Source: Pedobacter sp. PACM 27299
GTDB taxonomy: Bacteria > Bacteroidota > Bacteroidia > Sphingobacteriales > Sphingobacteriaceae
Assembly (NCBI RefSeq): GCF_001412655.1
Contig: NZ_CP012996.1
Coordinates: 4,712,001-4,776,000 of the forward strand
Direction: 5' to 3'
Length of the DNA stretch: 64,000 nucleotides
Below, piece by piece: positions 3,632-58,391 of this stretch. Below the pieces are notes generated by a model. The model made no database searches. It was not told the DNA's origin and saw nothing but the letters and a program-made list of their open reading frames with translations. Made by a program: the position numbers and the translations under genes. Each line of letters begins with the position of its first letter. The stretch's first letter is position 1.

Positions 3632-4456
3632 TTATTTGATTAAATAAATTCCTGTAGCATAGCTGAATAAATAGTTCTGCCCCTTTAGCTGAATGACCTT
3701 GGGTAAAGTCATATCGTCACATTTAAACTTATACTGACCAACCTGATAATAGGCCAGATAAACAGGAGAAGCCATCCTTCCATTTTTCCAGCGAATCAAT
3801 ACGTCCTCATCGAAGCGCCTCGCCTCAACCGGTAGTTTAACAAAATCATTCTTATAGCGTTCCTCCTGCCTGACGAGTAAAACATTGTTCCTGATTTCAA
3901 AAACATCACACCTTTCTCTGTTCACAATCTGATACTCACAGGGCTTCAATCCATAGGGCTGCAGTAATTTAACTTCATAGTCATCCAGCATTTTAAACTT
4001 TACACTGTCGGCAAACCGGGAACCCAACACCTCAGACCTTTTATCAATACTGTCTTTAAAAACTACTGTTTTAAATGGCCCATGCTTTTTATAGTCTGGA
4101 TACTCATATTTTTCCTGATTGAAGTATAGGTTTCCTAACTGATCCAGGTAAAATGGTAATTTCCAATCAAAATACTGCTCAATGAGCAGCTTTCCAGAAA
4201 TGTCTATAATTTTAAAAGGGAGATCGCTATTGCCCGGCTTCAATAATATCCTGTCGTCCTTTAGGAAAGCCAATTCAGAAAGGTGATCAGTGCCTGCAAT
4301 CTGTTTAAACTTAGCGCTGTCTTTTAAAAGATCAGCCAGCAAAGGCACTTCAGGATGGGTATCCTTTTTAGGAAAAGGATTACATCCGGCAAGAAATACT
4401 ATTGAAAATAATAAACTAAGGGGTAACAGCAGCAATACTATCGGGACTTTTCTCAT
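3632..4456 (-). CDS. Hypothetical lipoprotein
   Basis: A 274-residue protein of no family I recognise. The ATG at 4456 is chosen over a start 13 codons upstream because it gives a normal lipoprotein signal: MRK, a long Leu/Ile-rich core, then lipobox LAGC with the modified Cys near residue 25. The mature part is rich in Lys, Tyr and Asp and lacks obvious catalytic motifs. Stretches such as LAFLKDDRILLKPGNS and IIDISGKLLIEQYFDWKLP suggest beta-strand repeats like those of a propeller, but this is only an impression. It is separated from the peptidase operon upstream by about 200 bases holding a terminator hairpin, so it is probably its own transcription unit. Confidence 0.72.
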   Translation of the reverse strand: MRKVPIVLLLLPLSLLFSIVFLAGCNPFPKKDTHPEVPLLADLLKDSAKFKQIAGTDHLSELAFLKDDRILLKPGNSDLPFKIIDISGKLLIEQYFDWKLPFYLDQLGNLYFNQEKYEYPDYKKHGPFKTVVFKDSIDKRSEVLGSRFADSVKFKMLDDYEVKLLQPYGLKPCEYQIVNRERCDVFEIRNNVLLVRQEERYKNDFVKLPVEARRFDEDVLIRWKNGRMASPVYLAYYQVGQYKFKCDDMTLPKVIQLKGQNYLFSYATGIYLIK

Positions 4457-4609
4457 TTTATGATCTATTAAAGAACCCTGACAGGAGCCAATCATTCTTT
4501 TCTAACACCTAAAGTACGATCAATCTTGTAATAACTGGCCAGAATTGGAAATTTACAGATTAGATGATGTACAGATTTGATGTCGATCCCCTGGAATTAC
4601 TTAACAATA

Positions 4610-4645
4610 ACCTTCCGTTGCATGGACTTCAATACAACGGAAGGT
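4610..4645 (-). terminator. Terminator hairpin of the SusCD-peptidase operon
   Basis: A perfect 11-bp inverted repeat (ACCTTCCGTTG at 4610-4620 and CAACGGAAGGT at 4635-4645, 14-base loop) lies 11 bases past the stop codon at 4656 on the minus strand. The minus-strand sequence after it is T-rich. It is the expected end of the operon that starts at 12617. Confidence 0.7.
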
Positions 4646-4655
4646 ATAGCTTATA

Positions 4656-5858
4656 TTATAAAGCAGGATTTTGTGTGTAATCGCTCCAGAGCTGATCTAC
4701 ATTTTTACCTGTTTCTAATTGCCAGAAAGCACCATTGTTATAGGTACCTGTGCGTGCTGCGGTATTCAATTTAACCATGAGTCCAGGGTTTCTGATTTCC
4801 AGCCAAACAAAGAAACGTGCAGTGATTCTATAAGCATCCGTATAGTTTTGTCCGGCTTGATAATTAGGCAAACTCCATTTAGCAGTAGCATTGCTGAGGC
4901 CAATACGGTTGCGTTCATAATCTGCTAAACCTTCAGTAACCCATCCTGGTGCACCACCAGAATAAGCCTGCACGATGTGCATCATCTCATGAGTGGCTAC
5001 ATCTAAATCCAAAGGATTAGCTTTAAAATAAGCAGGGTCATAACGCACTACGCCACCTCCATAGGTTGCAGCAACGCCTTTATAATCAGGATCCATAATA
5101 AAGGTAATACTGGTCAACGCATTTGGATTATAGGTATCCACGGATTTACCATAGTTCTTTTTGAAAGCATCAATCAGTCCTGCTTTCACCGATGGCAGGA
5201 CATCGGTATTGCGGTCTACATAAGTAAGCGTATATTTACCTTCTTTGATTGTTTCTACGGTCGCTGATGCTGGAGTTACGGTTTGTTCTTTTTCTGGAAC
5301 CTCCAATAAGCGCCACTCTGCAAGTTGAAACAAAACGTTTGCACCTGTTCTGTTTTGCGAAGTCCCGCTAACATTCAAACGGTAATGCTTATAACCTTTC
5401 GTATTTTTAAAGTTAAAACGCTTCGTCTGCGTTCTAAAACCAAAAGCTTCATATTGTCTGGTATCCAGTTGAACCCAGTTTGTGCCATCATTTGACGCCG
5501 TTATTTTCCAGTCGCGGGGATCTCTTTCCTGAGCATCATCTCCAGAAGTAAGCGTATATGCAGCAATCACTTGTTCTTTTGGAAAAGACAGCTGCATATA
5601 GGAAGCAGCATCAAAAGAATAAGTCAGGAATTTCGTCGTAGTGATATTGTCTACTAACTTCGAAGAACCTTCTTTTCCATTCGCACCTGATGTATTCTCA
5701 GTGCTTACCGTAATTGTACCTGATGCCGTCACATCCTGCTCTTTAGTTGTTGTGATTGGATCTACGGTGTTATGATTTGATGTCGTTCCTTTATTACAGG
5801 AAGAATGCGCAACCAGCACGCAAAAAAGGGGCGCCATAAGGCATGAAAATTTCAACAT
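4656..5858 (-). CDS. Lipoprotein with discoidin-like domain and basic secretory protein (BSP) family metallopeptidase domain
   Basis: This 400-residue protein starts with a lipoprotein signal (lipobox HSSC near residue 21). An F5/8 type C/discoidin-like beta-sandwich follows at about residues 55-185 (SGDDAQERDPRDWKITASND, RFNFKNTKGYKHYRL). The C-terminal region (about 205-395) matches the plant basic secretory protein family. Its zinc site is HEMMH (His290, Glu291, His294) followed by the typical APGWVTEGLADYERN. It is predicted to be a surface peptidase with a binding module. It is the last gene of the SusCD operon, and its discoidin-like domain is clearly related to the whole of the operon's first gene product (12054-12617). 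The substrate is not readable; glycoprotein or peptide processing is inferred. Confidence 0.85.
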   Translation of the reverse strand: MLKFSCLMAPLFCVLVAHSSCNKGTTSNHNTVDPITTTKEQDVTASGTITVSTENTSGANGKEGSSKLVDNITTTKFLTYSFDAASYMQLSFPKEQVIAAYTLTSGDDAQERDPRDWKITASNDGTNWVQLDTRQYEAFGFRTQTKRFNFKNTKGYKHYRLNVSGTSQNRTGANVLFQLAEWRLLEVPEKEQTVTPASATVETIKEGKYTLTYVDRNTDVLPSVKAGLIDAFKKNYGKSVDTYNPNALTSITFIMDPDYKGVAATYGGGVVRYDPAYFKANPLDLDVATHEMMHIVQAYSGGAPGWVTEGLADYERNRIGLSNATAKWSLPNYQAGQNYTDAYRITARFFVWLEIRNPGLMVKLNTAARTGTYNNGAFWQLETGKNVDQLWSDYTQNPAL

Positions 5859-5926
5859 ATCAATTAGTTTATTTGTGTGTGTTTATCGCATAGAAAAAGC
5901 AACCTTAACAAGATTGCCTTCGTTTA

Positions 5927-6898
5927 TTAATAGGTAATACCTGGAAAATCGATTTTAGCCTTTACCAATTGCGCCTTCCAATCATTTCCTTTTTCATCTT
6001 TATCTCCAAATGCAATCAAAGCCTGGTTTTCAAGATTAGCTCCTGCAGCACCGCTCCAGAAATGGATAAACTCACCGAAGTTCATTCTACGGTCGTACTC
6101 CATATATTGTTTCCCGTTAACAACGATCTGATGTTTTGGAAAATGCTCCGCTAACTTGCTGAAAAAGCCATTCAGCACGCGTGTTTTACCAAACTGATCA
6201 TAGATGGGGAAGAACCAGTCTTTAAACCATTTTGTTCCGGCTCTAGGATAAGTATCAGTAGTGTTAATCATCAGGTTATACCAGCGTTTGGCATCATCAG
6301 TTCTGTTCAAGCCCAGATACACATCATATTGATAGATTTCCATCCATTTACTATCATGCCAGATGTCCCATGCTGGTGAACCTTTCACCCCTTTTACAGC
6401 ACCTTCAACAATATGTCCGATCTCATGCGTAGAAATGTCAATGTCATTCTCTTTACCCGACATCCATGCATTGAAATCCCCAGAACCGCAATCGGTCACA
6501 TTGCGATAATCATGACTGGCATCCATATAAGTGGAAGGATGACCACCGCCATATTTTCCTGCATGATAAATCACAAACAAACGACCATCATCACCAAAAT
6601 TCCCATAAGTCTTTTTGGTATAATCCCAGGCCTCAGCCATGTATTGAAATGGCCAGGTAATCGTTCCTTTCACATCGCCATCATAGTACACCGCCACATT
6701 GCTATCATAATACACCCGGTTTACAACCTGAACATGATCAAACCAATGTTCTTTCCATGTTTTAGGTGGTGCACCTGGCGGATCCTGAGCTTCTGCAATT
6801 GGAGGGGCTGGTGGGATGGGTTTTATGATTTCTTTTTTGGAATTACATCCAACACTTAAACCGGCTAAAAAAATTACTGTATACACGCTATTCTTCAT
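5927..6898 (-). CDS. Lipoprotein with HExxH (HEIGH) zinc-metallopeptidase motif
   Basis: The product is 323 residues using the ATG at 6898. The longer reading frame, which begins 26 codons upstream, runs into the end of susD and lacks a leading signal. The chosen start gives a lipoprotein signal (lipobox SVGC). A Pro-rich linker (KPIPPAPPIAEAQDPPGAPP) precedes the catalytic part. The zinc motif is STHEIGHIVEG (His158, Glu159, His162), with conserved-looking aromatics around it (DIWHDSKWMEIYQYDVY, MNFGEFIHFWSGAAG). I cannot name the family with certainty or identify the third zinc ligand. It lies between SusD and the BSP-type peptidase, 71 bases after susD, and is presumably co-expressed with both. 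It probably acts on the outer-membrane surface. Confidence 0.8.
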   Translation of the reverse strand: MKNSVYTVIFLAGLSVGCNSKKEIIKPIPPAPPIAEAQDPPGAPPKTWKEHWFDHVQVVNRVYYDSNVAVYYDGDVKGTITWPFQYMAEAWDYTKKTYGNFGDDGRLFVIYHAGKYGGGHPSTYMDASHDYRNVTDCGSGDFNAWMSGKENDIDISTHEIGHIVEGAVKGVKGSPAWDIWHDSKWMEIYQYDVYLGLNRTDDAKRWYNLMINTTDTYPRAGTKWFKDWFFPIYDQFGKTRVLNGFFSKLAEHFPKHQIVVNGKQYMEYDRRMNFGEFIHFWSGAAGANLENQALIAFGDKDEKGNDWKAQLVKAKIDFPGITY

Positions 6899-6969
6899 AA
6901 AATTTAATTTAACAGGCAATAAATAACACCGGACGATCATGCCCCGCCCGATGTTAATACTGCCTTCAT

Positions 6970-8796
6970 TTACCAACCTGTGTTTTGTACAATTTGGGGT
7001 ACTTTCTGTATTTCACCATTTGGGATAGGCCACAAATAATGTCTTTTTTGGAATACTCTGTTTTCAGTGGTCACCACAGTATAGAATGCCGGGCTATCCT
7101 TCGTGATGTCTAATCCACGAATAATATTATCGGTAGTTTCTGCAATTTTCCATTCTCTGGTATAGAAATAACGATCCAGTTCAAAAGCAAGCTCTACCCT
7201 TCTTTCCTTACCGATCGCAGCTCTCATATCAGTTGGAACAGGTAGTCCACCAGTACCGTATACAGGGATACCTGCACGTTCACGAATCCTGTTCAGATAA
7301 AGTAACAGGTCAGGATTTGTAGGGTCTGACTCCTGCAAGGCCTCTGCATAATCCAGATAAATTTCTGCCAAACGAATCACTGAGAATAAAGTACGACTGC
7401 TCGTCCATCCTGCCACTGTCAGGTGTTTTCTTGAAGTATAGCCTGTTTTGGTATAATCGGAATTCGCAATACCAGCTTTACCAGCATTTCCGGTATTGGT
7501 GAAATTAGTAATGATATTAGATTGCGGATTAATCCATTTACGACCTGTATACGTGATATTCGCATAAAAACGCGGTTCACGGTTCACATACATATTGCTG
7601 ATCAAACGAACCGCATTCTGGTCATTCGGATCTGGTGCCTGATAGTCAGAGAAACCAGTAGCCTTATAACTTGGATCGCTGTTAATAGACAATCCATTTA
7701 CAGTAAAAAATGCATCCACCATTTGCTGAGAAACAGACAGGAATGAGCCACCTTTATCACCTCCGGAAGCCCCATTATGATTTGGCGCTAATGAATATTG
7801 ATAATTGGTCACATCTCCTGCTCTTCCAAAGATCATTTCAGAATTCCAGCCATTCAAGACTACATCTCTACTAGCCAGGAAAGCCCTGTTGAATGCCGTA
7901 TTTGGAACTCCGGTTGGCGTGCTGCTGACCGAATATAAACTGTAACCTGAGTAATTCGCATTGTTTAAGAATTCTCTGGCAGCAGTAGCCAGTCTTGTCC
8001 ATTTCGCAGGACTGCTGGTTTGATTGATCAATTGTTTACCATCTTGATTTTTAAGATTGGCATAGTCAGCATTGCCATTAAACAAAGGTCTTGCTGCACT
8101 AAGCAATGCTTTTATTTTATAAGCCTGGGCAACTGATCCATTTACATGTCCATAATCTTCAGATGATTGAGGGATAGGTGGAAGCCCAGCAGTTGCCGCA
8201 TCCAGCTCAGCTACAATATAGTCGATACATTCATCAAATGAATTACGAGGTTTACTGATTGCAGCCAATGGCGCATCAGAAGGTATCGGTTCGTTGCCTA
8301 ATAAAACAACCGGACCGTATATACGGACTAAATGATAGTAATAAATCGCCCTTAACGCTCTCGCCTCGTTGAAATAACGACCCACAAAATCAATTCCACC
8401 AAGGTTACAGTCTGTACATCTGTTTACATTCGCCATGAAAGTACTGGCTGCCTGTATCCCTTTGTAGAAATTCTGCCAGTGGTAATTCACTTCACCTCTT
8501 GTGGCATCCCATGCACCGGTATTTACGTTTTCAGAGAAATTGGCCAGTGTATAATCCGCTTCATCAGAAGCGGCCGTCCATGGACCAATATTACCTGTCT
8601 GACTTGGGAAACGATCCTGATTCTGACTTGGCAAAGTCGAATACACATTTGCCAGGGCCTGCTCTACAGTCGCTTTCTTTTCAAAAGCCTGCGTAAAAGT
8701 CAATCGGTCATCAGGTACCTGGTCTAAAAATTTTTTACAACCGTAATTTCCGGCAATTAGCAGAAAGGCTGTTGTATATATAAATATTCTTTTCAT
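6970..8796 (-). CDS. SusD-like (RagB/SusD) outer-membrane substrate-binding lipoprotein
   Basis: A 608-residue SusD homologue with lipobox NYGC and the typical start of the mature protein (CKKFLDQVPDDRLTF). The TPR-like helices carry the usual RYFNEARALRAIYYYHLVRIYGPV block. The conserved end is RRVELAFELDRYFYTREW and the final PNGEIQKVPQIVQNTGW. It caps the partner SusC barrel and delivers substrate to it. It lies 5 bases downstream of susC. The length is normal for the family. Because the partner enzymes are peptidases rather than glycosidases, the cargo may be a glycopeptide or peptide; that is inference. Confidence 0.95.
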   Translation of the reverse strand: MKRIFIYTTAFLLIAGNYGCKKFLDQVPDDRLTFTQAFEKKATVEQALANVYSTLPSQNQDRFPSQTGNIGPWTAASDEADYTLANFSENVNTGAWDATRGEVNYHWQNFYKGIQAASTFMANVNRCTDCNLGGIDFVGRYFNEARALRAIYYYHLVRIYGPVVLLGNEPIPSDAPLAAISKPRNSFDECIDYIVAELDAATAGLPPIPQSSEDYGHVNGSVAQAYKIKALLSAARPLFNGNADYANLKNQDGKQLINQTSSPAKWTRLATAAREFLNNANYSGYSLYSVSSTPTGVPNTAFNRAFLASRDVVLNGWNSEMIFGRAGDVTNYQYSLAPNHNGASGGDKGGSFLSVSQQMVDAFFTVNGLSINSDPSYKATGFSDYQAPDPNDQNAVRLISNMYVNREPRFYANITYTGRKWINPQSNIITNFTNTGNAGKAGIANSDYTKTGYTSRKHLTVAGWTSSRTLFSVIRLAEIYLDYAEALQESDPTNPDLLLYLNRIRERAGIPVYGTGGLPVPTDMRAAIGKERRVELAFELDRYFYTREWKIAETTDNIIRGLDITKDSPAFYTVVTTENRVFQKRHYLWPIPNGEIQKVPQIVQNTGW

Positions 8797-8801
8797 TATG
8801 T

Positions 8802-11800
8802 TTAAAAATTAGCGGTGAAACCCAGAGAATAATTTGAAGTCAGCGGATAACGGGTACCATTACTGGTCAACAGTTCTGGATCCCATAACTTAAACTTGCT
8901 GAAAGTATACACGTTATAACCCGTTGCATAAATTCTTAGACGTTTCACACCGATGGACTTAATTCCTTCTTTAAGGGTGTATCCCAAATCAACATTTTTC
9001 AATCTCAGGAAGCTCACATCACGTTTCCACCAGGTGCTCGACTGATAATTGTTGTTGTTGGTGTTGTAAGATAATCTAGGATAAGTAACATTCTGACTTG
9101 GGTTAGCTACCGTCCATCGGTCTGTAGCCACTGCCAGCATATTTCCCTGTCCTCCAGAGTTAGCAAATGAAGGAATGTCAATTAAGATATCCGCATTGCT
9201 TTGTCCTTGGAAAAAGGCACCAAAATCAAAATTCTTGTAGCTTAGAGAGAAACCAAAACCATAAGTGGTCGTTGGCATATCACCTCTTCCGATGATGGTC
9301 TTATCAAAATCGTTGATTTCACCATCACCATTCAAATCCTTGTACTTAATATCACCTGGCATTAGGGTACCAAATTGTTTCGGACTGGCATCAATTTCTG
9401 CCTGAGTATCGAATAATTTCTCTGCAATAAACCCAAAACGAGTCGCTGCTAAGATGTTATATCCTCTTTGCTCCATCCATGGATAAGCTTTAGGTGCCTG
9501 ATCATTTTCAATCACCTTATCCTTGTTGTAAGTATAATTCGCTCTGAAATTGATAGACAAATCCTGGCTGAATTGCGCATTGTACTCTATTGTACCGTCA
9601 ATACCTTTATTTTTCACTTCACCAAGGTTACCCAGTGGGGTATTGGCAAGTCCGATATAGTTTGGCACTACACCACGGCTGATAAATGTCCCTGTTCTGT
9701 GTTCTTTGTACACATCTACAATTAGGGAAAGGTTGTTATTTAAGGTCTTCAACTCGAAACCTAAATCCTGCTTGCGCGTCTCTGCCCAGGTAACATCCAC
9801 GCCATAAGCAGTAATCGCTAAACCGCCAAAGCTGTTCTGCCCGGTCTGTCCAAAAGTATAACCGGGAATATCTGTATTGCTGATTTTGGTCAGGTAGAAG
9901 AAACGATCTGCTTCATTATCTGCATAATTTGCCGTACTTCCTCCAGATCCTACGATACCATCAGAATAACGGAACTTCACCATCTGGAAAGTGTTTTTCA
10001 ACTTCTCAAAGAAAGGCTCATTAGACACCAACCAGCCTACACCAAATGCTGGAAATGCACCGTAACGTTTACTAGGCGCAAAATTCTCTGAACCATTATA
10101 ACCCAGGTTAAACTCTGCAAAATACTTGTTATCATAAGCATAAGTAGCACGTGTAGCCACACCCTGCAACCTGTAAGGTATAGAAAGTGTTAAATTACCG
10201 GCAAATGGATTACTATTATCATTCTGATTGTAAAGTACCAAACCACTTACCGCATGTTTACCAAAAGTACGATTGTAATTGATCCCTATTTCAGCATATA
10301 CTTTCTTGTCTCCAGAATTGGTATTGGCATAGTTTAAGAAATCCTGCCCTTGTAATACCAAGCCATATTTATAACCTGAACTTGGGTCGTTAGGGGTATT
10401 GTAAGGATCATTAGGGTTAATTCTGTACAAGGATTCTCTTTTAATCCTGTTGATGCGGTTATCGTTTTTAACATCGAATGAGAACATTCCTGTCATAGAC
10501 AAACCAGGGGTAATCGCTTTTAAATCCTGGGTTAAACGAAGGTTGGAATACAGCTGAGTAGTATATCCAATGCGATATCCATTTCTGGTGATGTCACCAT
10601 AAGGGTTACGCTGATCGGCCTGCGGACTAATTCCTGGCAAGCTTCCGTTTGGATATAAGATTGGAAATGAAGTTGGATTGATCAGGAAAGCCTGACTAAA
10701 AATATCCTGTGCATTAAAGTTACTTGGGAAGTTAGTTTGTGACAACACCCCTTTTACGCCCAGATCCATCTTAGTGGTTCCCGTAATGTCCCAGTTTAAA
10801 TTGGTACTTACATTAAAACGGTCATAACTTTGGTTGATTTTCTTATTGTCTGCATCACTGGTTTTAAACAATCCGCTTTCGCCGTAATAACCTAAAGACA
10901 CATAATACCTCGCATTACTTACCCCACCAGATAAATTGGCAGTAGCTGTTCTGTTTTGTCCGAAATCATTGTAAATGGCATCAAACCAATTTACATTTGG
11001 ATACAGGATTGGATCAGCACCACTGGCTGTTTTTTGAATCGCATCCAGACTAAAAGCAGGATTAAATGCACCCGCAGCACCGCCTCTCAGGTATTCAGTA
11101 TATTTTGCCTCATTGGCAAGGTTCATATAATCGATACCATCAATCAGCTGTGGCTTACGTGTAAACTTGCTGATCCCCTGATAAAAATCTACAGAGATCG
11201 TTGGTACACCCGTTTTACCCTGCTTGGTATTGATCAGGATGACCCCGTTTGCACCACGAATACCATATACCGCAGTCGCCGCAGCATCTTTAAGCACAGT
11301 AAAGTTCTCTACGTCATATACACTGATGTCATTTAGGTTTCTACCCGGCACCCCATCTATGATGATCAAAGGACTTCTGTCACCGGCCGATTGTGAAGTA
11401 ATACCACGGATAAAAATATCTGAACCTGTAGCACCAGGCTCTCCATTTCTGCTCACATTAATTACACCTGGAATACGACCCGCCAACATCTGACTTAAGC
11501 TGGATACCGGCTGCTTTAAATCTTCTACTCTTACCGACGATTGTGCCCCTACCAGACTTTCTTTCTTCTGTGTACCAAAACCTACAATAGCGATCTCTTT
11601 CAGGTCTTCGCCACTTTTTGGTTTCATCTCAATAGTTAAAGCCGTTTGCTTTCCGACAGCAACTTCCTGAGTTTCATAACTTACATAACTTATAATTAAG
11701 ACTGCATTTTCATTTGGTATGCTGATCGTAAAAGCACCATTCACATCAGCAGCAGCAGTAGTAGTGGTTCCTTTAACCCTGATACCGGCACCTGGTAATG

Positions 11801-12008
11801 GCAATCCTTTTTCATCCTTTATAATACCACGGATCGTAATGTCCGCATTTGGCTGTACTGTGGTGACAAACGTATCTGCTTTAATTGCAGGTACCGATGC
11901 TGAGGCAGTGCTGCAAGTTCCTGCAGCTACAGAAAAGGCCAGCACCCGAAGGGCAATATCCCTCGATAGCAGCTCTCTTCCAATTAACATTCGTAATTTT
12001 TTTCTCAT
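8802..12008 (-). CDS. SusC-like TonB-dependent outer-membrane transporter (peptidase locus)
   Basis: The protein has 1068 residues from the ATG at 12008; the frame can also begin at a TTG two codons earlier, which is less likely. It has a long N-terminal signal region, a carboxypeptidase regulatory-like domain at about 55-135 (DITIRGIIKDEKGLPLPGAG), a plug starting near FGTQKKESLVGA, and the SusC signature VLKDAAATAVYGIRGANGVI. The long beta-barrel ends in YSLGFTANF with the terminal Phe expected for BAM recognition. The region between signal and regulatory domain is too short for an STN domain. No trans-envelope anti-sigma signalling is therefore expected, which agrees with the lack of an ECF sigma/anti-sigma pair nearby. 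It pairs with the downstream SusD. Confidence 0.95.
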   Translation of the reverse strand: MRKKLRMLIGRELLSRDIALRVLAFSVAAGTCSTASASVPAIKADTFVTTVQPNADITIRGIIKDEKGLPLPGAGIRVKGTTTTAAADVNGAFTISIPNENAVLIISYVSYETQEVAVGKQTALTIEMKPKSGEDLKEIAIVGFGTQKKESLVGAQSSVRVEDLKQPVSSLSQMLAGRIPGVINVSRNGEPGATGSDIFIRGITSQSAGDRSPLIIIDGVPGRNLNDISVYDVENFTVLKDAAATAVYGIRGANGVILINTKQGKTGVPTISVDFYQGISKFTRKPQLIDGIDYMNLANEAKYTEYLRGGAAGAFNPAFSLDAIQKTASGADPILYPNVNWFDAIYNDFGQNRTATANLSGGVSNARYYVSLGYYGESGLFKTSDADNKKINQSYDRFNVSTNLNWDITGTTKMDLGVKGVLSQTNFPSNFNAQDIFSQAFLINPTSFPILYPNGSLPGISPQADQRNPYGDITRNGYRIGYTTQLYSNLRLTQDLKAITPGLSMTGMFSFDVKNDNRINRIKRESLYRINPNDPYNTPNDPSSGYKYGLVLQGQDFLNYANTNSGDKKVYAEIGINYNRTFGKHAVSGLVLYNQNDNSNPFAGNLTLSIPYRLQGVATRATYAYDNKYFAEFNLGYNGSENFAPSKRYGAFPAFGVGWLVSNEPFFEKLKNTFQMVKFRYSDGIVGSGGSTANYADNEADRFFYLTKISNTDIPGYTFGQTGQNSFGGLAITAYGVDVTWAETRKQDLGFELKTLNNNLSLIVDVYKEHRTGTFISRGVVPNYIGLANTPLGNLGEVKNKGIDGTIEYNAQFSQDLSINFRANYTYNKDKVIENDQAPKAYPWMEQRGYNILAATRFGFIAEKLFDTQAEIDASPKQFGTLMPGDIKYKDLNGDGEINDFDKTIIGRGDMPTTTYGFGFSLSYKNFDFGAFFQGQSNADILIDIPSFANSGGQGNMLAVATDRWTVANPSQNVTYPRLSYNTNNNNYQSSTWWKRDVSFLRLKNVDLGYTLKEGIKSIGVKRLRIYATGYNVYTFSKFKLWDPELLTSNGTRYPLTSNYSLGFTANF

Positions 12009-12053
12009 AATCAATTTGATTGTATCTAATTTGTTTGTTGGTTTTTGATCTTT

Positions 12054-12617
12054 TTACTGTTGATCTTCGGGAACTTCTATCACTCTCCATTCACCCAGCT
12101 GAAATAAATCGCCAGAGCCAATTGAAGTAATACTAATGCGGTAATACTTGTACGCGTTAAGGTTTTTGAAACTGAAGAATCTGGTTTGTACACGTCCAGC
12201 AAAAGCTTCATTTGTCCTGGTATCCAATACCGTCCAGGTGCTGCCGTCATTAGATCCGTTAAATGTCCAGTTCTTTGGATCTCTCAAAGGAGCATCCCCT
12301 CCAGAAGTTAGTGAGTAAGAAGCCACTTGCTGAGCTTGAGGAAACTCCAGCTGCATGTAGAAATTAGGCGCATAAGAAAAGATTAAGAATTTCGAATTGA
12401 CATCATCATCCACCACTTTCTTCGAACCTTCACCACTATCAATCCCATCTCTGTTTTCTATGTTCACACTCAGTTTACCTTTTGAGGTCACATCTACCTT
12501 CGCCTTCCAGGTAAATAATTCGGTTTTTGGATAGTCCTGCTTTTCACAGCCTGAACATAATGCGGCGACTAGGAAAAGCACTGGTGATGCTTTCCTGGGC
12601 AATTTTAATAAGTCCAT
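12054..12617 (-). CDS. Small lipoprotein with discoidin-like domain
   Basis: A 187-residue lipoprotein (lipobox CSGC, Cys near residue 24) made almost entirely of one F5/8 type C/discoidin-like domain: YMQLEFPQAQQVASYSLTSG, RDPKNWTFNGSNDGSTWTVL, FFSFKNLNAYKYYRI and LFQLGEWRVIEVPE. The same blocks recur in the peptidase at 4656-5858 at clear paralog level. It is the first gene of the SusCD-peptidase operon, 45 bases before susC. It may act as a surface-exposed binding protein that concentrates substrate for the complex. The binding function comes from family knowledge; the ligand is unknown. Confidence 0.82.
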   Translation of the reverse strand: MDLLKLPRKASPVLFLVAALCSGCEKQDYPKTELFTWKAKVDVTSKGKLSVNIENRDGIDSGEGSKKVVDDDVNSKFLIFSYAPNFYMQLEFPQAQQVASYSLTSGGDAPLRDPKNWTFNGSNDGSTWTVLDTRTNEAFAGRVQTRFFSFKNLNAYKYYRISITSIGSGDLFQLGEWRVIEVPEDQQ

Positions 12618-12840: not shown

Positions 12841-14286
12841 ATGACCCTTAATAAAATACAAGCATCCCCTCGAACGCACAAGATAATTGCGCTGATTAGT
12901 CTGGTTATCCTTTCTTATTTACAATTCAATCTGATTTATACTACCTATAAATTAAAAGACAAGCAATATATATTAAAGGAAAGCCGCTCTATCGAGAATA
13001 GCTACAAAGAAGTGGTTCGTAATGACAAGTTATATCCTGGGGGACAGAAAATTGTAGATTCCGTCATTTACAGGAATATGCAAGCGATGGAAGATACTTA
13101 TTACCATAATCCTGCTGCTTTTGAACGCCTTAAAGAAAGGGTTTGCGACAGTATCGTCCGGAATCTCCGCTTAAACAGCAACATGGACAGTGTCTTTACT
13201 GCGATTTTAACAAAGGATAACCTGGATCGGGATCTAAAATATCTATTGGTCATGAATGACCTTGCCATTACCTTTAATGGTGTCAATTACATTTCATTGT
13301 ACAAACCAGAAAAAGAAAAGCTTGCTTACCTGGCCCTAAACATTCAAAACAAATACGGAATCGCCATAGATGGCAACCTCCAAAATCCTACAAACCAAAA
13401 TCATACTGCAGGTTTGATGGTCAGCTCCCCAACACCAAGAAGCTATTACATGGGTTTTGCAATCCATGTAGATTACGACAACAGGAAAATGATTATCCTG
13501 AAATCAATGTCCTTCACCCTATTGCTCTCCATCTCCTTTATTCTGCTGGTCATCAGCATCTACTACTTCACGTATAGAAATTGGCTAAGACAAAAGAAAC
13601 TGGCAGATATGAAGACGGATTTTCTAAATAGCATTACTCATGAATTTAACACGCCTATTGCTACAATTTTAGTCGCCAACTCCAGTATTCAGAACAAGGA
13701 AATTATTGCTGATCCTGCCAAGGTTTATCCACTCACAGAAGTCATCAAAAGGCAAACACAGCGACTTCAAACCCTGATTAATCAGGCGCTGGACATTAGC
13801 CAGATGAATAAGAATGAGATAGAAAGAGAACTTTATGACATGGCTTCTCTTTTAGAAGAACTCATCAACGACTATAAACTTAAAATCACCGAAAATGTAA
13901 CTATCAGTTACAACTTTGAAGATATTCATGCTTTGGTGTTATTGAACAGGTTTTTACTGACCACCATGCTTTATAATATTTTCGACAATGCGCTGAAATA
14001 TAACACGAAAGACGCCAAAGAAATTAAGCTGGAGCTGATAACCCATGGCCAAAGCTTAACACTCTGCATCCGGGATAATGGAGTAGGCATGAACAAAAAG
14101 CTCATGAAATCTATATTCGACAAATTTTACCGTGGTAAAAATGGAGTGAAGACACGTGGATTAGGATTAGGCCTGTTTTATGTCAAACAAACCGTAGAAG
14201 CGCACAACTGGGAATTAAATTTAAGCAGTGAACCAAACCAGTATAGTACATTTTGTATTACCATGCCGATAGAAAAAGAGAAATAA
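12841..14286 (+). CDS. Membrane sensor histidine kinase
   Basis: This 481-residue kinase has two membrane helices (about 14-34 and 223-245) flanking a periplasmic sensor domain of about 190 residues that I do not recognise. HisKA follows with phospho-acceptor His267 (LNSITHEFNTPIATIL). The ATPase domain has the N box (NIFDNALKYN), G1 (IRDNGVGMNKK), F box (FDKFYRGKNG) and G2 (TRGLGLGLFYVKQ). It is complete and should be active. It is transcribed away from the SusCD-peptidase operon across a shared 223-base spacer and faces the response regulator gene tail to tail. It is therefore the likely sensor for that operon. The ligand cannot be predicted. Confidence 0.93.
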   Translation: MTLNKIQASPRTHKIIALISLVILSYLQFNLIYTTYKLKDKQYILKESRSIENSYKEVVRNDKLYPGGQKIVDSVIYRNMQAMEDTYYHNPAAFERLKERVCDSIVRNLRLNSNMDSVFTAILTKDNLDRDLKYLLVMNDLAITFNGVNYISLYKPEKEKLAYLALNIQNKYGIAIDGNLQNPTNQNHTAGLMVSSPTPRSYYMGFAIHVDYDNRKMIILKSMSFTLLLSISFILLVISIYYFTYRNWLRQKKLADMKTDFLNSITHEFNTPIATILVANSSIQNKEIIADPAKVYPLTEVIKRQTQRLQTLINQALDISQMNKNEIERELYDMASLLEELINDYKLKITENVTISYNFEDIHALVLLNRFLLTTMLYNIFDNALKYNTKDAKEIKLELITHGQSLTLCIRDNGVGMNKKLMKSIFDKFYRGKNGVKTRGLGLGLFYVKQTVEAHNWELNLSSEPNQYSTFCITMPIEKEK

Positions 14287-14291
14287 CATCC

Positions 14292-15014
14292 TTACTTTTT
14301 TGAGAGTTCCGCAATGCTGAATATATAGCCAACACCATATACATTCTGGATACTCACCTCCGAAGAATGATTCAAAGCTTTACGTAATCTGGAAATGAAT
14401 ACATCCAGGCTTCTGCCCAGAAAATAATCATTCTCCCCCCAGAGCTCCAGCAAAATATCCGCCCTTTTTAAAATGCGGTTTTGATGTAAAAACATATATT
14501 CCAGCAGCTGAGCTTCGCGAAGGGTTAAAGAAATCACGGAATGATTAGGTAAAAACAACTTTAACAAATCCTTTTTAAAAGTTAAATCCCCTATGGCCAG
14601 CTCAGTTTCATTTACAGTAGACACCAGCGCTTCAGTCAGCTCAAGCGGTTCATTCCTTTTTAAGATGTTTTTTATTCTGAGTACCAGCTCATCAATATCA
14701 AAAGGTTTGACAATGTAGTCATCAGCGCCAATCTTCAAACCCCGAAGCCTGTCATTCTTTTCATTTCTTGCCGTAACGAAAATAAAACTCTGATTTTTAT
14801 TCAGGGACTTAATCTTTTCTACCAACTCAAAACCATCATAATCTGCCAGTTGAATGTCAAGGATCAAGATGTGAAATTTTGTGGTCTGATAGATATTCAA
14901 CGCATCTTGGGCATTTAAACACCAGGTCACTTCAAATCCTACCAGCTCCAAATACTGCTTTACCACATTACCAAGATCCCTTTCATCTTCTACAAAAAGT
15001 ACATGTTGTTTCAT
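14292..15014 (-). CDS. OmpR/PhoB-family response regulator
   Basis: A 240-residue regulator with an N-terminal receiver (acidic pocket VEDERD, phospho-acceptor Asp53 in LILDIQLADYDG, switch Thr81, Lys103 in DYIVKPFD). A C-terminal winged-helix DNA-binding domain follows (LTLREAQLLEYMFLHQN, LDVFISRLRKALN, IQNVYGVGYIF). The family ends at about this length. Its stop lies only 5 bases from the stop of the histidine kinase on the opposite strand, so kinase and regulator are convergent rather than in one operon. Cognate pairing is inferred from adjacency. Confidence 0.94.
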   Translation of the reverse strand: MKQHVLFVEDERDLGNVVKQYLELVGFEVTWCLNAQDALNIYQTTKFHILILDIQLADYDGFELVEKIKSLNKNQSFIFVTARNEKNDRLRGLKIGADDYIVKPFDIDELVLRIKNILKRNEPLELTEALVSTVNETELAIGDLTFKKDLLKLFLPNHSVISLTLREAQLLEYMFLHQNRILKRADILLELWGENDYFLGRSLDVFISRLRKALNHSSEVSIQNVYGVGYIFSIAELSKK

Positions 15015-20290: not shown

Positions 20291-22564
20291 TTACTTTCCT
20301 GCACTTAAAGAAAATGGCCGATCAGCTGCTGCAAGCCCTCTGGTCAGCGAGGGCTGGTCAGACATTTCCAGCTTTAACACCCCGCCATTCAGTAGATCAC
20401 TGTGACGGATATAATTAGCTGTATACGGCTTCCCGTTCAACGTGGCTGATTTAATATAGACATTTTTAGCGCTGTTTTCAGGAGCCTCAATCACAAACTG
20501 CTGTCCATTTTCCAGGTTAATCGTCGTTTTCTTAAACATCGGACTGCCCATCACATACTGATCCGTCCCAGGAGTCACGCTGTAAAATCCTAAAGCACTC
20601 AACACATACCAGGAAGAAGTCTGCCCTTGATCTTCATCTCCCGGATAGCCGTTTTCCGTCGCATCATAAAGTTTAGACATCACATTCCTCGCATGAAACT
20701 GCGATTTCCAGGGCTGTCCCGCATAATTATAAAGGTACACCATGTGCTGAATCGGCTGATTGCCATGTGCATACTGCCCCATATTTGCCATCACCATTTC
20801 CGTCATCTCATGGATCATTCCACCATAAGTCCCTACATTCACCGTATTTGGCTCAGAAAACACCGAATCCAGCTTCGCACTGAAGTTCTGCTCACCTTTC
20901 ATTAAATCAATCAAACCCTTCACATCCTGGAATACAGACCACTGATAATGCCAGGCATTCCCCTCCGTATAAGGACCTCCCCATTCAAAAGGATCAAATT
21001 TCGGCGTCCATTGACCATTCGCATCTCTCCCTCTCATGAATTTAGTGGAAGGGTCATACACATTTTTATAATTGTACATCTGTCTCTCAAAAATACCCGC
21101 GTAAAAATCATTACCGGTCATTTTTGCCAGAGTCCAGCCACAATAATCATCATAAGCATATTCCAATGTTTTTGCCGTAGCCTCCCTGTATTTAGGATAA
21201 GGCACATACCCCAGCTCGAAGTATTCTTTCCAGCCATCCCTGCCATTTGCAGGGCCCCATGGGCCTTTATTCGTCGATTCATGCAGGTAAGCGGCCAGGG
21301 CTTCTTTAGGATCAAATGTCCTGATCCCTTTTGCCCAGGCATCTGCCAGCAGCGAAATCGCGTGATTACCAATCATACTGCCCGCCTCACTTGGGAAAGA
21401 CCAGGAAGGCAGCCAGCCGCATTGCTTATACGCGTCAATTAAGGCCTGCATATAACGGCCATGCATTTCCGGATGCATCAAGGTATTTAAAGGAAATTGA
21501 GCACGAAAAGTATCCCAGAAACCAGTATCGGTGAACATATAACCGGGATGTACTTTCCCATCATACGGACTAAAATAATAAGGATTTCCATTGGCATCGA
21601 TTTCATAAAACTTCCTGGAGAAAATACTCGCCCTAAAGAAACAAGAGTAGAAAGTTGCTTTATCGGCTTCCGTTCCACCCTCCACCACTACTTTCGACAA
21701 TGATTTGTTCCAGACCTCTGCAGCTTTCTCCTTAGTCACTTCCAAACTTTTATCTGCGCCTAACTCCCTGCTCAGGTTCAATTCTGCCTGCTCCATACTG
21801 ATGTAAGAGGAAGCGGTTTTCACCTGCACTTTCAGGCCATCTTTGAACTGAACATAGGCGCCTTTACCTGAACCTTCAGCACTTTTCTCTCCGGGATTAA
21901 TGGTGTTCTTCTTATTTTCCCAGGTGCCATAAGCTTTAAAAGGCTGGTCAAAATAGAGTACAAAAAAGCTTTTGAAACCTTCTTTAAAACCCTCTCCATT
22001 GTTTATAAAACCAGTAATCTTGTTTTCCTCCGGATAGATTTTAACCCCGCTGATGCCAGTATACCCATCTAAAACCAGGAAACTTTTCTTACCTGATGGA
22101 TAACTGAACCGCAAATGAGCACCACGCTCAACTGGTGAAATCTCAGTAGTAATCTGGTTTTCGAACTTCACTTTATAATAATTGGGTTTCGCCACCTCAT
22201 CATGATGACTGAACTTCGCTTCCCGATCATTTTCATTCACCACCAAACGGTCTGTCATAGGCATCAAAGAGAATACCGCATAATCCCTGGACCAGGAACT
22301 GCATTGATGTGCCTGTTGGAATCCCCGGATCTTATCTTTAAAGTACTGGTATTTCCAGCCATCGCCGTTTCTTCCGGTCTGAGGTGTCCAGGTGTGCATG
22401 GCAAAGGGTAAAGCAGTGGTAGGATACGTATTCCCCCTGGTCAGTTCATGTTTTGAATTCGTTCCCTGCAAGGTATTTACATATTTAACGAGGTCGGCCT
22501 TTTGGGCCAAACCTCGTACACTAACCTGCACACAAATGAAAAAGACAATAAATTTAAGTTTCAT
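20291..22564 (-). CDS. GH92 family alpha-mannosidase (first copy)
   Basis: A 757-residue secreted enzyme (signal peptide ending in GLAQ) with normal GH92 architecture: an N-terminal beta-sandwich followed by an (alpha/alpha)6 domain. Catalytic-site motifs are GNTYPTTALPFAMHTWTP near the start, the acid Glu534 in EGNAWHYQW, and the Asp pair Asp643/Asp645 in GDEDQGQTSSWYVLSALGF. GH92 enzymes are calcium-dependent, inverting exo-alpha-mannosidases acting on alpha-1,2/1,3/1,4/1,6 linkages. This is the only glycosidase of the operon starting at 29961, so mannose release is the locus's main function. Linkage specificity cannot be read from sequence. Confidence 0.95.
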   Translation of the reverse strand: MKLKFIVFFICVQVSVRGLAQKADLVKYVNTLQGTNSKHELTRGNTYPTTALPFAMHTWTPQTGRNGDGWKYQYFKDKIRGFQQAHQCSSWSRDYAVFSLMPMTDRLVVNENDREAKFSHHDEVAKPNYYKVKFENQITTEISPVERGAHLRFSYPSGKKSFLVLDGYTGISGVKIYPEENKITGFINNGEGFKEGFKSFFVLYFDQPFKAYGTWENKKNTINPGEKSAEGSGKGAYVQFKDGLKVQVKTASSYISMEQAELNLSRELGADKSLEVTKEKAAEVWNKSLSKVVVEGGTEADKATFYSCFFRASIFSRKFYEIDANGNPYYFSPYDGKVHPGYMFTDTGFWDTFRAQFPLNTLMHPEMHGRYMQALIDAYKQCGWLPSWSFPSEAGSMIGNHAISLLADAWAKGIRTFDPKEALAAYLHESTNKGPWGPANGRDGWKEYFELGYVPYPKYREATAKTLEYAYDDYCGWTLAKMTGNDFYAGIFERQMYNYKNVYDPSTKFMRGRDANGQWTPKFDPFEWGGPYTEGNAWHYQWSVFQDVKGLIDLMKGEQNFSAKLDSVFSEPNTVNVGTYGGMIHEMTEMVMANMGQYAHGNQPIQHMVYLYNYAGQPWKSQFHARNVMSKLYDATENGYPGDEDQGQTSSWYVLSALGFYSVTPGTDQYVMGSPMFKKTTINLENGQQFVIEAPENSAKNVYIKSATLNGKPYTANYIRHSDLLNGGVLKLEMSDQPSLTRGLAAADRPFSLSAGK

Positions 22565-30396: not shown

Positions 30397-32889
30397 CTAT
30401 TTTGTGTTACTATGGTTCTCTTGTTGCTGATTCCACTGGCTTTCCAATAGCTTGATAAAATAGCCTCCTACCACACTCCTTGCCGTAAAATTCTGACGAA
30501 GCGCATCTGTTGTCCCATGCCAGTCGCTCAGTGGAGAACGCGAAGGTGTTTCTATCGCATACAAGTAAATCGGATCGATGAAAGCTTCAAAATCAGCCCG
30601 GTTATCGGCCAGTACAGAGGTCCAGATCACCCAATCAGATTTAGTATAGGATTTGCGGCTATCCAGTGGTAAACCATACTTATTTTGTTTACCTAGATAA
30701 TACTTCACTTCCTTCTCATAAACCGTTTTAGGAAATAGATCAAGACCTAATAACTTATCCCATACTAAATTATACTTCTGACTCCAGGTATCTTTTTGAC
30801 CAAAAGCCAGGCTATAATGATCGCCATCATCTGCCAGCTCCATCCATTTTTTAGCCATTTCTTTAGCCATGCTGGTATACTTCGCCGCAGTTGCGGTTTC
30901 TCCCATTTGCTGTGCCATCCAGCCATAAGAACCTAAAGCCACAATCGCTTTCGCGGATAAATTTGCATTTCTATTCAGGTGACCTGCAAAATCATCTGTA
31001 CACAATTGATTTCCAGGATCAAAACCTTCTTTACTCAGGTATTCAGCCCAGGTCGTTAAAGTTGCCCAATGTTTTTTCGCATATTCTGGATTGCCTTCTG
31101 CTTTTACAGTTGCCGCAGTAATGATGATCATATTCCCAGCTTCTTCTACCGGCATGTCTTCCCCGTAAGTCTGACCATTTGCTAAAGGATAAGTGCCTAA
31201 ATCATGTGCAGGATAAGGTTTTTTCCACCTGCCGCTTTCAGAATATTCGAACATACCATTCAACAAACCTTTCACTAATTCCGGGTTATAAGCCAGAAAT
31301 AAAGGCGCAGATGGATAGGTAAGATCCACAGTGTAAATAGAGCCGTTACTGTAGTTCTCTTTCGACATAAACAGCAATTCTCCCTTCGGACTTATCACTA
31401 GTTTATGCGCAGAAATCGCTTGTCTGTAGGCAAGAACGCATAAACCTGCATACTTCTCTCCTCCGGATTTAACCGCAGCAGTATACATCTGGGTATCGAA
31501 AGCATTACATTTTTCCAGGATCTGCGCATACTCATTGGCAGATTTTTGAAGCATAGCAGCAAAAGTCGTTTTGCCATCATTCGTCCAGTAGGCTTTCAGG
31601 TTTTCACCGAAATACTGTATCGATTCCAGGTCCTCATAAGCCAGCATCACAAACTGTTGTTTTGCCTTATCTTCTACCTGACCAAAATCCAGCACCGTAT
31701 TCAGCGCATACTTTGTTCCTTTCACTCTATTGGTATTTATAGCTTTACTACCGGATTGAAATAAAGCAGGACTAGCGGAAGATTTAGCAATAAACTGCGT
31801 ACTCTTTTGGGATTGAGGTACCGCTACATAGACATACCCCCAGTCGATCCGCACATTATCGCCACTTTTTTGCAGCACCGGCTGAGAAGTTGTTCCAGCT
31901 TTCAAAACCGACAATCCAGGAACCTTTAACGATTGGGCTTCAATTTCCTGAGCAGGTGTATGTACCGCCAGATCCGAGGAAGCAGCAAAAAGAATTTTCA
32001 CCTGATGCTTCTTTTTATCATTGGATTTAACGCGGTAAGTCAGGTAAGAAACAGGTCTGGAGATCAAGTCCAGATGATCCATCAACAATGGAGAAGTAAA
32101 GGCAAGCTCTAAATCAACACCGCCAGCTTTAAATGAATACGTAGTCTGGGTTGCTTTTACCATTCTGCTGGTCTGTGTGGCCAAGGCAACTTTAGGGTTG
32201 TTTGCAGGATCATCTGTGGAAAGCCCAACATCCAGCCATTGTCCACCAGCTGTGTTTTCAATGTGGACGGCCAAAACATTGTTTCCTTTTTTCAGGCTTT
32301 TCAATGCAGCTCCTTTTATAGGCACATATACATACTTACCTTCCGTGAAACCTATTTTCTTCAAGACCTCCTGGCCGTTTAAATAGACAGCCACATTGTC
32401 ATCATGGTTGATTTTAAGGTATAATACCTTTGGAATTTCGGCACCAAGCTGAAAATCTCTAATTGCCCAAAGGTGTCTGCTTTTCCATTCCGTTCCTGCC
32501 TCATCAGGACGGTCGCCAAAAGGCGCCGCACCTGATTTCCAGCCGGAAGCGTCAAAGTTAAGGTCATTCCAATTCGATTTTGGCGCAGTTTCCGTATAAC
32601 GGAAGGTATAAGGCTTTTCATCTGCAGCAGCCAATATGGTTTTATAAGTCCTCTCGGAATGCCCCATGAAATTATAGGACTTTCCATCCACCTGAATCAG
32701 CCCGCTCAATGCTTGTTCCGCACCTGTCCAGTGTGAAGTTGCGGATTGGGTCAGCTGATCGGTAGTAGACCAGATGCTGAAATAAGGATCGTGAGTAATT
32801 AAAGGGTATGCCGGGGCCTTACGCTGCTGTGCCTGAGCAGATACCAGCGTAAGTCCTAGAGTTATAAAGGTTAAAATTTGACGAATCAT
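30397..32889 (-). CDS. DUF4964/DUF5127/DUF4965/DUF1793 'glutaminase-like' exported protein, paralog 1
   Basis: 830 residues from the ATG at 32889; a Met seven codons upstream is possible, and both leave a signal peptide ending SAQA. The order is an N-terminal DUF4964 segment (YPLITHDPYFSIWS), then a galactose-binding-like beta-sandwich at about 80-220 (NDLNFDASGWKSGAAPFG, VAVYLNGQEVL). DUF5127/DUF4965 regions follow (YGEDMPVEEAGNMIIITAA, DDFAGHLNRNANLSAKA), and the end is DUF1793-like (RSPLSDWHGTTDALRQNFTA). The family name comes from a fungal glutaminase, but the fold is an (alpha/alpha)6 toroid typical of glycosidases. In a glycan locus a glycoside hydrolase activity is at least as likely. 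It is the third gene of an operon starting at 36601. Confidence 0.87.
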   Translation of the reverse strand: MIRQILTFITLGLTLVSAQAQQRKAPAYPLITHDPYFSIWSTTDQLTQSATSHWTGAEQALSGLIQVDGKSYNFMGHSERTYKTILAAADEKPYTFRYTETAPKSNWNDLNFDASGWKSGAAPFGDRPDEAGTEWKSRHLWAIRDFQLGAEIPKVLYLKINHDDNVAVYLNGQEVLKKIGFTEGKYVYVPIKGAALKSLKKGNNVLAVHIENTAGGQWLDVGLSTDDPANNPKVALATQTSRMVKATQTTYSFKAGGVDLELAFTSPLLMDHLDLISRPVSYLTYRVKSNDKKKHQVKILFAASSDLAVHTPAQEIEAQSLKVPGLSVLKAGTTSQPVLQKSGDNVRIDWGYVYVAVPQSQKSTQFIAKSSASPALFQSGSKAINTNRVKGTKYALNTVLDFGQVEDKAKQQFVMLAYEDLESIQYFGENLKAYWTNDGKTTFAAMLQKSANEYAQILEKCNAFDTQMYTAAVKSGGEKYAGLCVLAYRQAISAHKLVISPKGELLFMSKENYSNGSIYTVDLTYPSAPLFLAYNPELVKGLLNGMFEYSESGRWKKPYPAHDLGTYPLANGQTYGEDMPVEEAGNMIIITAATVKAEGNPEYAKKHWATLTTWAEYLSKEGFDPGNQLCTDDFAGHLNRNANLSAKAIVALGSYGWMAQQMGETATAAKYTSMAKEMAKKWMELADDGDHYSLAFGQKDTWSQKYNLVWDKLLGLDLFPKTVYEKEVKYYLGKQNKYGLPLDSRKSYTKSDWVIWTSVLADNRADFEAFIDPIYLYAIETPSRSPLSDWHGTTDALRQNFTARSVVGGYFIKLLESQWNQQQENHSNTK

Positions 32890-32945
32890 ATAAATAGGGG
32901 ATCTTTTCAATTTGATTGGATACGGAAATGAATTGGATACGGATG

Positions 32946-48856: not shown

Positions 48857-48881
48857 GATGACAGCTCTCAAATTTTCAATA

Positions 48882-50186: not shown

Positions 50187-50214
50187 AAATCAAAGTGTTT
50201 AAAATAAAAAATAT

Positions 50215-50243
50215 AAATGGGTCTCCCCGGGGGAGACCCATTT
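50215..50243 (-). terminator. Intra-operon terminator/attenuator hairpin between SusD and glycosidase genes
   Basis: The arms AAATGGGTCTCCCC (50215-50228) and GGGGAGACCCATTT (50230-50243) are perfectly complementary, a GC-rich 13-bp stem with a minimal loop. It begins 4 bases past the susD stop on the minus strand. Minus-strand sequence directly after is ATATTTTTTATTTT. This is the form of an intrinsic terminator. Genes of the same operon continue downstream, so partial read-through would set the ratio of SusCD to enzymes. Confidence 0.82.
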
Positions 50244-50247
50244 GGGA

Positions 50248-51837: not shown

Positions 51838-51878
51838 AATCGTTTTTTTGAGTTCATTTAATATTCAATTTGCTCCAC

Positions 51879-54938: not shown

Positions 54939-55128
54939 TTCATACAGATTTAGTGATTTGGTATTTGGTTGTTTGTTTGTTATTCGGTTATGATTAGGGT
55001 TTTTGTTCAGTTAATATTGAAGCTTTATTTAGGTTATTATTGGGCTGCTCAGCAGGTTGTAATTCTTTTTTATTTTTTGCTGGATAAAGCCTGGCATCCT
55101 GGCTGTTATTCCGGCGAGACCCCTGAGC
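54939..55128 (-). promoter_or_regulatory. Leader region before the third susC
   Basis: A 190-base spacer inside the minus-strand gene series, larger than the other gaps. It carries the 11-base palindrome CTGCTCAGCAG (55045-55055), next to a T-rich stretch on the plus strand. A similar arrangement is found at 30285-30295 before the second locus. It is a plausible site for a second promoter or a leader that regulates SusCD expression. Confidence 0.4.
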
Positions 55129-58307: not shown

Positions 58308-58325
58308 TAGTGTGTGTTTAAAATT

Positions 58326-58337
58326 ATGTACCTACAT
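58326..58337. promoter_or_regulatory. Palindrome ATGTA-cc-TACAT upstream of the isomerase-like gene
   Basis: ATGTA (58326-58330) and TACAT (58333-58337) are inverted around CC. The core resembles the other candidate GntR sites in this window. It lies 19 bases before the start of the minus-strand operon, a typical place for repression. Confidence 0.4.
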
Positions 58338-58391
58338 ATATACAGTAATCTTGTTTATTCAATTTATTTTAGTTAAAAAAACCGAAAAACA

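Follow-up and report, generated by a model that had tools for sequence, protein, structure and literature searches.

A SusCD operon pairing putative HEIGH and BSP zinc peptidases with CBM32 domains of a predicted mannose type in Pedobacter sp. PACM 27299: a candidate utilization locus for mannosylated proteins

Introduction

In the classical scheme of a polysaccharide utilization locus (PUL), the step at the cell surface is carried out by an endo-acting enzyme (PMC11992087). The Bacteroides thetaiotaomicron PUL BT4240-50 combines SusCD with the CBM32 surface-glycan-binding lipoprotein BT4245 and the CBM32-bearing M60-like peptidase lipoprotein BT4244, has glycosidases in the locus, and places its peptidase, a glycopeptidase that cuts O-glycosylated regions of mucin, at the cell surface (PMC11992087). 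Here we describe a five-gene SusCD operon in a 64,000-nucleotide stretch of the genome of Pedobacter sp. PACM 27299 (contig NZ_CP012996.1, positions 4,712,001 to 4,776,000; hereafter the window), which encodes two putative zinc peptidases, one named here for its HEIGH motif and the other belonging to the BSP family (PF04450). We consider it reasonably probable that this operon is a PUL for alpha-mannosylated glycoproteins, that is, mannoproteins or high-mannose glycoproteins, and that two M1-like gluzincins serve as its endo-acting surface enzymes.

Like BT4240-50, the operon joins SusCD to a free CBM32 lipoprotein and to a zinc peptidase lipoprotein that itself bears a CBM32. It differs in that its peptidases are HEIGH and BSP proteins rather than M60-like ones (PF13402), and in that there are two of them, no second peptidase being mentioned for BT4240-50 in the sections of the source used here. 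The CBM32 domains differ as well, those of BT4240-50, a system whose target is mucin core-1/Tn glycans, binding galactose or N-acetylgalactosamine, whereas those of the window are predicted to be of a mannose type. A second, uncharacterised B. thetaiotaomicron PUL, that of BT3013 (SusD) and BT3015 (a predicted M60-like peptidase), likewise has a SusD and a peptidase with no carbohydrate-active enzymes; its peptidase is M60-like, and the same sections mention no BSP or HEIGH protein for it (PMC11992087). With these two comparable PULs, the remark of a first-pass annotation of this DNA that it knew of no named system with such a makeup is not supported. No BSP- or HEIGH-based PUL was found among the matches listed in the open-access literature.

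Comparisons can also be drawn for the individual parts. NnGH92, a multi-domain GH92 alpha-1,2-mannosidase (PDB 7nsn; PMC10167667), shares with the window a CBM32 subtype, its mannose contacts and a linkage to alpha-mannosidase. The NnGH92 CBM32 is fused to a glycosidase, whereas that of the window is fused to a peptidase. Neobacillus, the source of NnGH92, is not known to have a SusCD. The plant protein PR-17/PRp27 is of the same BSP family, is secreted, and needs its HExxH for labelling by a metalloprotease probe, but it is a stand-alone defence protein, unlike the BSP fusion of the window (PMC9322406). The M60-like peptidases are gluzincin-type zinc peptidases often joined to CBM32 (PMC3267712), and the M1 aminopeptidases and M30 lugdulysin resemble HEIGH and BSP in predicted fold only, without sequence membership.

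Organization of the operon

The genome is a single contig of 6.15 Mb. The five genes lie head to tail, separated by 5 to about 70 bases, and are as follows, from first to last:
12054..12617, minus strand: free CBM32 (F5/8 type C; PF00754) lipoprotein, 187 aa, probably a surface glycan-binding protein (SGBP)
8802..12014, minus strand: SusC-type TonB-dependent transporter (TIGR04056, 932 bits)
6970..8796, minus strand: SusD-type lipoprotein (PF07980), best solved relative 7bll (BT3013)
5927..6898, minus strand: putative HEIGH zinc peptidase lipoprotein, 323 aa, HExxH-x24-E, unnamed gluzincin family
4656..5858, minus strand: fusion of CBM32 to a putative BSP (PF04450) peptidase, lipoprotein, 400 aa

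The span and types of these genes had been proposed in the first-pass annotation; all five open reading frames (ORFs) are in place on the minus strand, and the Pfam and NCBIfam profiles bear out the CBM32-type, SusC, SusD and BSP domains, NCBIfam naming the SusC as OMP_RagA_SusC. For the HEIGH gene, the ATG at 6898 was judged by eye to be a likelier start than the TTG at 6976. Apart from SusC, each protein of the operon carries a hydrophobic leader with a Cys after it; by consensus these four are presumably lipoproteins, with -3 positions that are not of the E. coli type. As in a PUL, the SusC and SusD genes are adjacent on one strand and degradative enzymes are co-located, namely the two peptidases within the operon and a GH92 7.7 kb away. 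The closest solved relative of the SusD, 7bll (E 2.3e-56), is BT3013 of B. thetaiotaomicron (PMC11992087).

HEIGH and BSP as predicted gluzincins

The HEIGH protein has no Pfam match better than E 0.19 and no NCBIfam match, and its HExxH-x24-E motif is present in all 50 aligned relatives; it represents a conserved putative peptidase family without a Pfam or NCBIfam model. Its predicted structure (predicted local distance difference test score, pLDDT, 89.1) has an M1/M30-like fold, so that HEIGH combines the features of a gluzincin (clan MA(E)): an HExxH, a downstream Glu and, by prediction, an M1-like catalytic fold. The BSP peptidase that had been recognized in the last gene is borne out by Pfam (PF04450, 70.8 bits against a cut-off of 23.8), is the only BSP match in the genome, and belongs to an alignment in which HExxH is invariant (24 of 24 sequences). 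The BSP part of the fusion protein is likewise predicted to have an M1-like fold, the AlphaFold model (mean pLDDT 62.7, with the CBM32 part below 50) being good for that part only. Both predicted folds align with the catalytic domains of M1 aminopeptidases and M30 lugdulysin, with at most 15% identity among the matches listed, and neither sequence profile retrieved a convincing solved structure.

Neither protein groups with the M60-like peptidases of the B. thetaiotaomicron systems by profile. HEIGH has no Pfam match to PF13402 at E <= 1, and its profile compared with 12 M60-like proteins gave a weak probability of 11%; the BSP protein has no Pfam match to PF13402 either. The genome does encode one M60-like peptidase (PF13402; G000:C1:347698-348510), which lies far from the operon. 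Separately, longer BSP proteins of about 320-390 aa (L094:11034-12014 and those of many Pedobacter loci) mostly show a second, partial match to the BSP profile in their N-terminal part, which could be either a degenerate copy or an additional domain.

CBM32 domains with the mannose-contact residues of NnGH92

The free protein and the BSP fusion both match PF00754 (F5_F8_type_C; 29.8 and 31.6 bits, respectively, with a cut-off of 28.2). Their discoidin regions share 45% identity (E 2e-45), and the genome contains no further match at E <= 0.001. The homology of the domains at the two ends of the operon, as well as the reality of the blocks RDP-(K/R)-(N/D)-W (RDPKNW and RDPRDW) and SNDG-(S/T)-x-W (SNDGSTW and SNDGTNW) common to them, is thus as first proposed. 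The sole strong PDB match of both domains is NnGH92 (7nsn; E 9.8e-41 for the free protein and 5.8e-33 for the fused one). In the N-terminal CBM32 of that enzyme, mannose is held via Glu105, Asp148 and Arg152, while Phe122 stacks against it (PMC10167667). The counterparts of the three polar contacts are Glu63, Asp108 and Arg112 in the free domain and the residues at the same alignment positions in the fused one.

Across relatives, the Glu/Asp/Arg set is kept in 25 of 25 aligned domains and in 64 of 64 family domains, two overlapping sets gathered with a hidden Markov model (HMM) of that same family. Of 9 SGBP copies, a group that counts at least one genome twice, 8 retain these residues as well. 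In a control cluster of fucosidases, the set was found in 0 of 12 C-termini, where the Arg column is a gap; the cluster had 13 members, one of 597 aa being dropped by length, and the Pfam F5/8 check covered L042 only. These residues suggest that the CBM32 domains of the window bind mannose, and the putative mannose-type CBM32 is a module swapped among free, SGBP, HEIGH and BSP contexts.

It could instead be that these domains bind another sugar, such as galactose, and that the target is a galactose-bearing glycoprotein of plants or animals. The domain is of the F5/8 type C/CBM32-like kind, many CBM32s bind galactose, and a GH2 enzyme lies 24 kb away in the window. Moreover, the galactose-binding CBM32 of MvGH33 overlays the NnGH92 site (PMC10167667), and the solved proteins closest to the SusD belong to mucin-linked PULs (PMC11992087). 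Given the invariance of the Glu/Asp/Arg mannose-contact set, and with no galactosidase family among the operon-run genes scanned (a sample of genes), we regard a galactose-type ligand as highly improbable.

In a tree of CBM32 domains, a separate clade (99/100) unites the three domains fused to BSP, and a clade from which they are excluded (97/91) contains 38 of the 39 free ones. Because the fused clade falls outside that of the free domains, the tree, in which several rows are long-branched and the root is arbitrary, rules out the BSP-fused CBM32 as a recent duplicate of the first gene.

Conserved linkage to SusCD, BSP and GH92

Within the taxonomic family, HEIGH was found in 48 of 251 genomes (four being weak partial matches), whereas BSP was found in 234 of 251, which makes HEIGH the more specific marker. 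A contig scan yielded 261 relatives, of which the best 80 were mapped with purpose-built HMMs, a set that leans to Pedobacter; the nearest named relatives by HEIGH in the scan are Pedobacter polysacchareus (97%) and Pedobacter sp. N36a (93%). A HEIGH ORF was obtained for 79 of the 80 loci. The remaining one, L149, dropped out because the ORF filter retained an antisense ORF that overlaps the gene; the HEIGH frame itself is open, and the locus would count as one more of the CBM32-SusCD-HEIGH kind.

HEIGH is fused to CBM32 in 22 of the 79 loci and unfused in 57. The same-strand run of these 57 loci contains SusCD in 45 cases, BSP in 40, free CBM32 in 38 and GH92 in 31, with SusCD and BSP together in 37 and SusCD, BSP and CBM32 together in 30. 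By chance, about 1 BSP would be expected in 57 runs (a rough upper estimate that assumes 20-kb runs and 4 BSP genes in every 4.2 Mb), the loci not being independent and most of them being from Pedobacter. Since the runs are cut where the loci end (at 10 kb flanks or at the ends of short contigs, e.g., L114 and L119), all of these counts are lower bounds. Loci that combine SusCD, BSP and GH92 come from Pedobacter, Mucilaginibacter, Parapedobacter, Flavisolibacter, Lacibacter, a Bacteroidetes metagenome-assembled genome and bacterium A37T11; the genus labels follow the record titles, with L104 (Sphingobacteriaceae bacterium) assigned to Pedobacter. The neighbourhood survey suggested in the first-pass annotation therefore shows that the genes do co-occur elsewhere.

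In addition to these linkages, BSP is found in two kinds of fusion. The CBM32-BSP fusion is present in the window and in 2 of the 80 loci (L090 and L091), while a GH92-BSP fusion of 988-989 aa occurs beside SusCD and HEIGH in 3 of the 80:
L145:11025-13991: GH92-BSP fusion
L150:11009-13978: GH92-BSP fusion
L152:10932-13901: GH92-BSP fusion

Pfam confirmed both GH92 and BSP in the two fusions scanned (L145 and L150). Such fusions connect the BSP/PR-17 peptidases, a poorly understood group, with alpha-mannose. G093 has a 998-aa BSP frame that may be a further fusion of this type.

A general protein- or peptide-scavenging SusCD system of the RagAB type would fit the presence of peptidases and the lack of a glycosidase in the operon of the window. 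The CBM32 would then serve solely for anchoring or adhesion, and the mannosidases close by would be incidental. Six of the 37 loci with SusCD and BSP have no scored glycoside hydrolase (GH) in their run, which fits such a system, although two of the six, L114 and L119, are on contigs that end nearby. Nevertheless, GH92 belongs to the run in 31 of the 57 unfused loci and is fused to BSP in three loci, the mannose-contact residues are conserved, and an orthologous GH92 lies close to the operon in the window itself, all of which makes general scavenging unlikely.

Other arrangements of HEIGH were also seen. The loci with HEIGH-CBM32 fusions and without SusCD, BSP or GH92 are L121, L125-L129, L131-L134, L136-L144, L147, L151 and L168; the protein of L168 is a CBM32-CBM32-HEIGH with a type IX secretion tail, and L154 has a two-CBM32 protein with such a tail, which supports an extracellular workplace for those relatives. 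HEIGH without scored partners alongside occurs in L156 and L161, from Desmonostoc (a cyanobacterium) and Hyalangium (a myxobacterium).

Alpha-mannosidases around the operon

The usual gene order in the Pedobacter relatives is GH92, ROK kinase, CBM32, SusC, SusD, HEIGH, BSP, BSP, GH92, with GH125 (3 of 57 runs) and GH29 fucosidase (2 of 57) as rarer members. The corresponding enzyme of the window stands apart from the operon:
20291..22564, minus strand: GH92 alpha-mannosidase, 7.7 kb from the operon

This enzyme is 81% and 78% identical to the GH92s that head the operons of the sister species L093 and L094, respectively, as against 49% for the second GH92 of L094. With a copy of the GH92 of the sister operons only 7.7 kb away, the apparent lack of a glycosidase in the operon has the look of a rearrangement confined to the window. 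The earlier claim that glycosidases are absent from the system is thus not supported, given that GH92 is in 31 of the 57 sister runs as well. Other alpha-mannan genes are present too: in all, the window holds three GH92s and a GH76, together with MGH1-like and ManA-like proteins and a sugar transporter of the major facilitator superfamily (MFS).

A mechanism of the same kind could also be directed at a mannose-containing glycoprotein of other bacteria rather than of fungi or plants. Mannose occurs in Bacteroidota O-glycoproteins, and gene content does not separate fungal, plant and bacterial mannoproteins. Pfam was run on 20 of the 40 unlabelled genes of SusC-bearing runs and identified three members of the GtaA (glutaminase A six-hairpin) family and a single GH43. 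The genes scanned included no GH76 and neither of the N-glycan markers GH18 and GH85, the lack of these two markers being compatible with a bacterial target. On the other hand, the window holds a GH76, a family that acts on fungal alpha-1,6-mannan backbones, and the GH29 and GH125 of the few runs that contain them fit eukaryotic glycans. We judge a bacterial target to be quite improbable.

A second cluster of the alpha-mannan type occupies positions 45710-61584 of the window and comprises a CBM-like+GH92 protein, an MGH1-like protein, SusCD, a sugar MFS transporter, a ManA-like protein and a GH92. The window also encodes two GtaA proteins (30397-32910 and 34139-36601) with an aldose epimerase between them. 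GtaA is found near the HEIGH/BSP operon in the relatives L100, L110 and L152 (within the runs) and in L187, L188 and L190. The upstream 14-18 kb stretches of eight relatives contained GtaA relatives (57-59%) in three cases, while a search of the same stretches for the second SusCD of the window gave only distant SusC matches (24-26%).

A putative PUL for mannosylated proteins

The reading of the operon as a mannoprotein PUL builds on the domains that its genes encode, on their homology and conservation, and on the linkage and fusion of the genes, from which a surface location, a substrate and a route of import may be proposed. The free CBM32 lipoprotein and the CBM32 of the BSP fusion would hold terminal mannose at the cell surface; HEIGH and BSP would cleave the polypeptide, a role that a surface endo-glycanase usually fills on the glycan; the resulting mannosylated glycopeptides would be imported by SusCD; and GH92 exo-mannosidases, whose genes belong to the operon itself in relatives and lie 7.7 kb off here, would remove the mannose. 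Since the operons of sister species include mannose-removing enzymes, the system looks like a protein-cutting version of a sugar-uptake machine. The binding, cutting and import of a glycopeptide, as put forward in the first-pass annotation, remains the best reading of these genes.

Several observations weigh against a mannoprotein PUL. There is no glycosidase within the window's own operon, and the GH92 at 20291-22564 adjoins a different SusCD and SGBP, with two regulator sets intervening. The SusD's kinship with mucin-linked rather than mannan PULs, already noted in connection with galactose, points in the same direction. The equivalent of the stacking Phe122 varies, being F in 12 and Y in 2 of the 64 family domains (Phe in the free domain of the window and Tyr in the fused one), and NnGH92 is a single structural precedent. 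For that enzyme, an N-terminal deletion variant retained about half of the activity, and binding tests isolated no role for the CBM32s (PMC10167667). Finally, the 22 loci with a HEIGH-CBM32 fusion have no SusCD, BSP or GH92 in their run, and in eight of the unfused loci SusCD and HEIGH are accompanied by neither BSP nor any scored GH; some parts are therefore not obligatory.

If it is a mannoprotein PUL, the operon would extend the glycopeptidase-PUL idea, known from gut mucin and BT4240-50, to mannosylated proteins in soil Bacteroidota, would offer a direct substrate hypothesis for the BSP family, whose plant members are defence proteins, and could be a source of enzymes for cutting or capturing high-mannose glycoproteins. 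A broader proposal, which we consider rather unlikely, is that BSP/PR-17 and HEIGH are sister branches of M1-like gluzincins specialized for mannosylated glycoproteins. If true, it would give the orphan BSP family its first substrate class, would make fungal cell-wall mannoproteins the predicted target of the PR-17 defence proteins of plants, and would define a type of PUL that uses a pair of glycopeptidases instead of a surface endo-mannanase.

Regulators, hairpins and flanking genes

Two regulatory genes lie next to the operon:
12841..14286, plus strand: sensor histidine kinase, divergent from the operon
14292..15014, minus strand: OmpR-type response regulator, probably the partner of the histidine kinase

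A histidine kinase and response regulator recur beside SusCD-HEIGH, mostly divergently, in the clade of the window and in other genera, and this two-component system probably controls the operon.

Two hairpins were located on the operon's strand:
4610..4645, minus strand: 14-pair hairpin directly after the last gene, probably the end of the operon
6924..6956, minus strand: 13-pair hairpin between the SusD and HEIGH genes, a possible attenuator

Terminator-like sites of this class were not clearly enriched (8 found against a shuffle mean of 6.7), and promoter scans gave nothing above chance, either for sigma-70 (17 found, 22.7 expected) or for a Bacteroidetes-type pattern (2 found, 3.3 expected). 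After the operon, on the same strand, the window encodes a 287-aa protein (3632-4495) that Pfam and NCBIfam place in no family convincingly; L091 has an ORF of equal length in the corresponding position.

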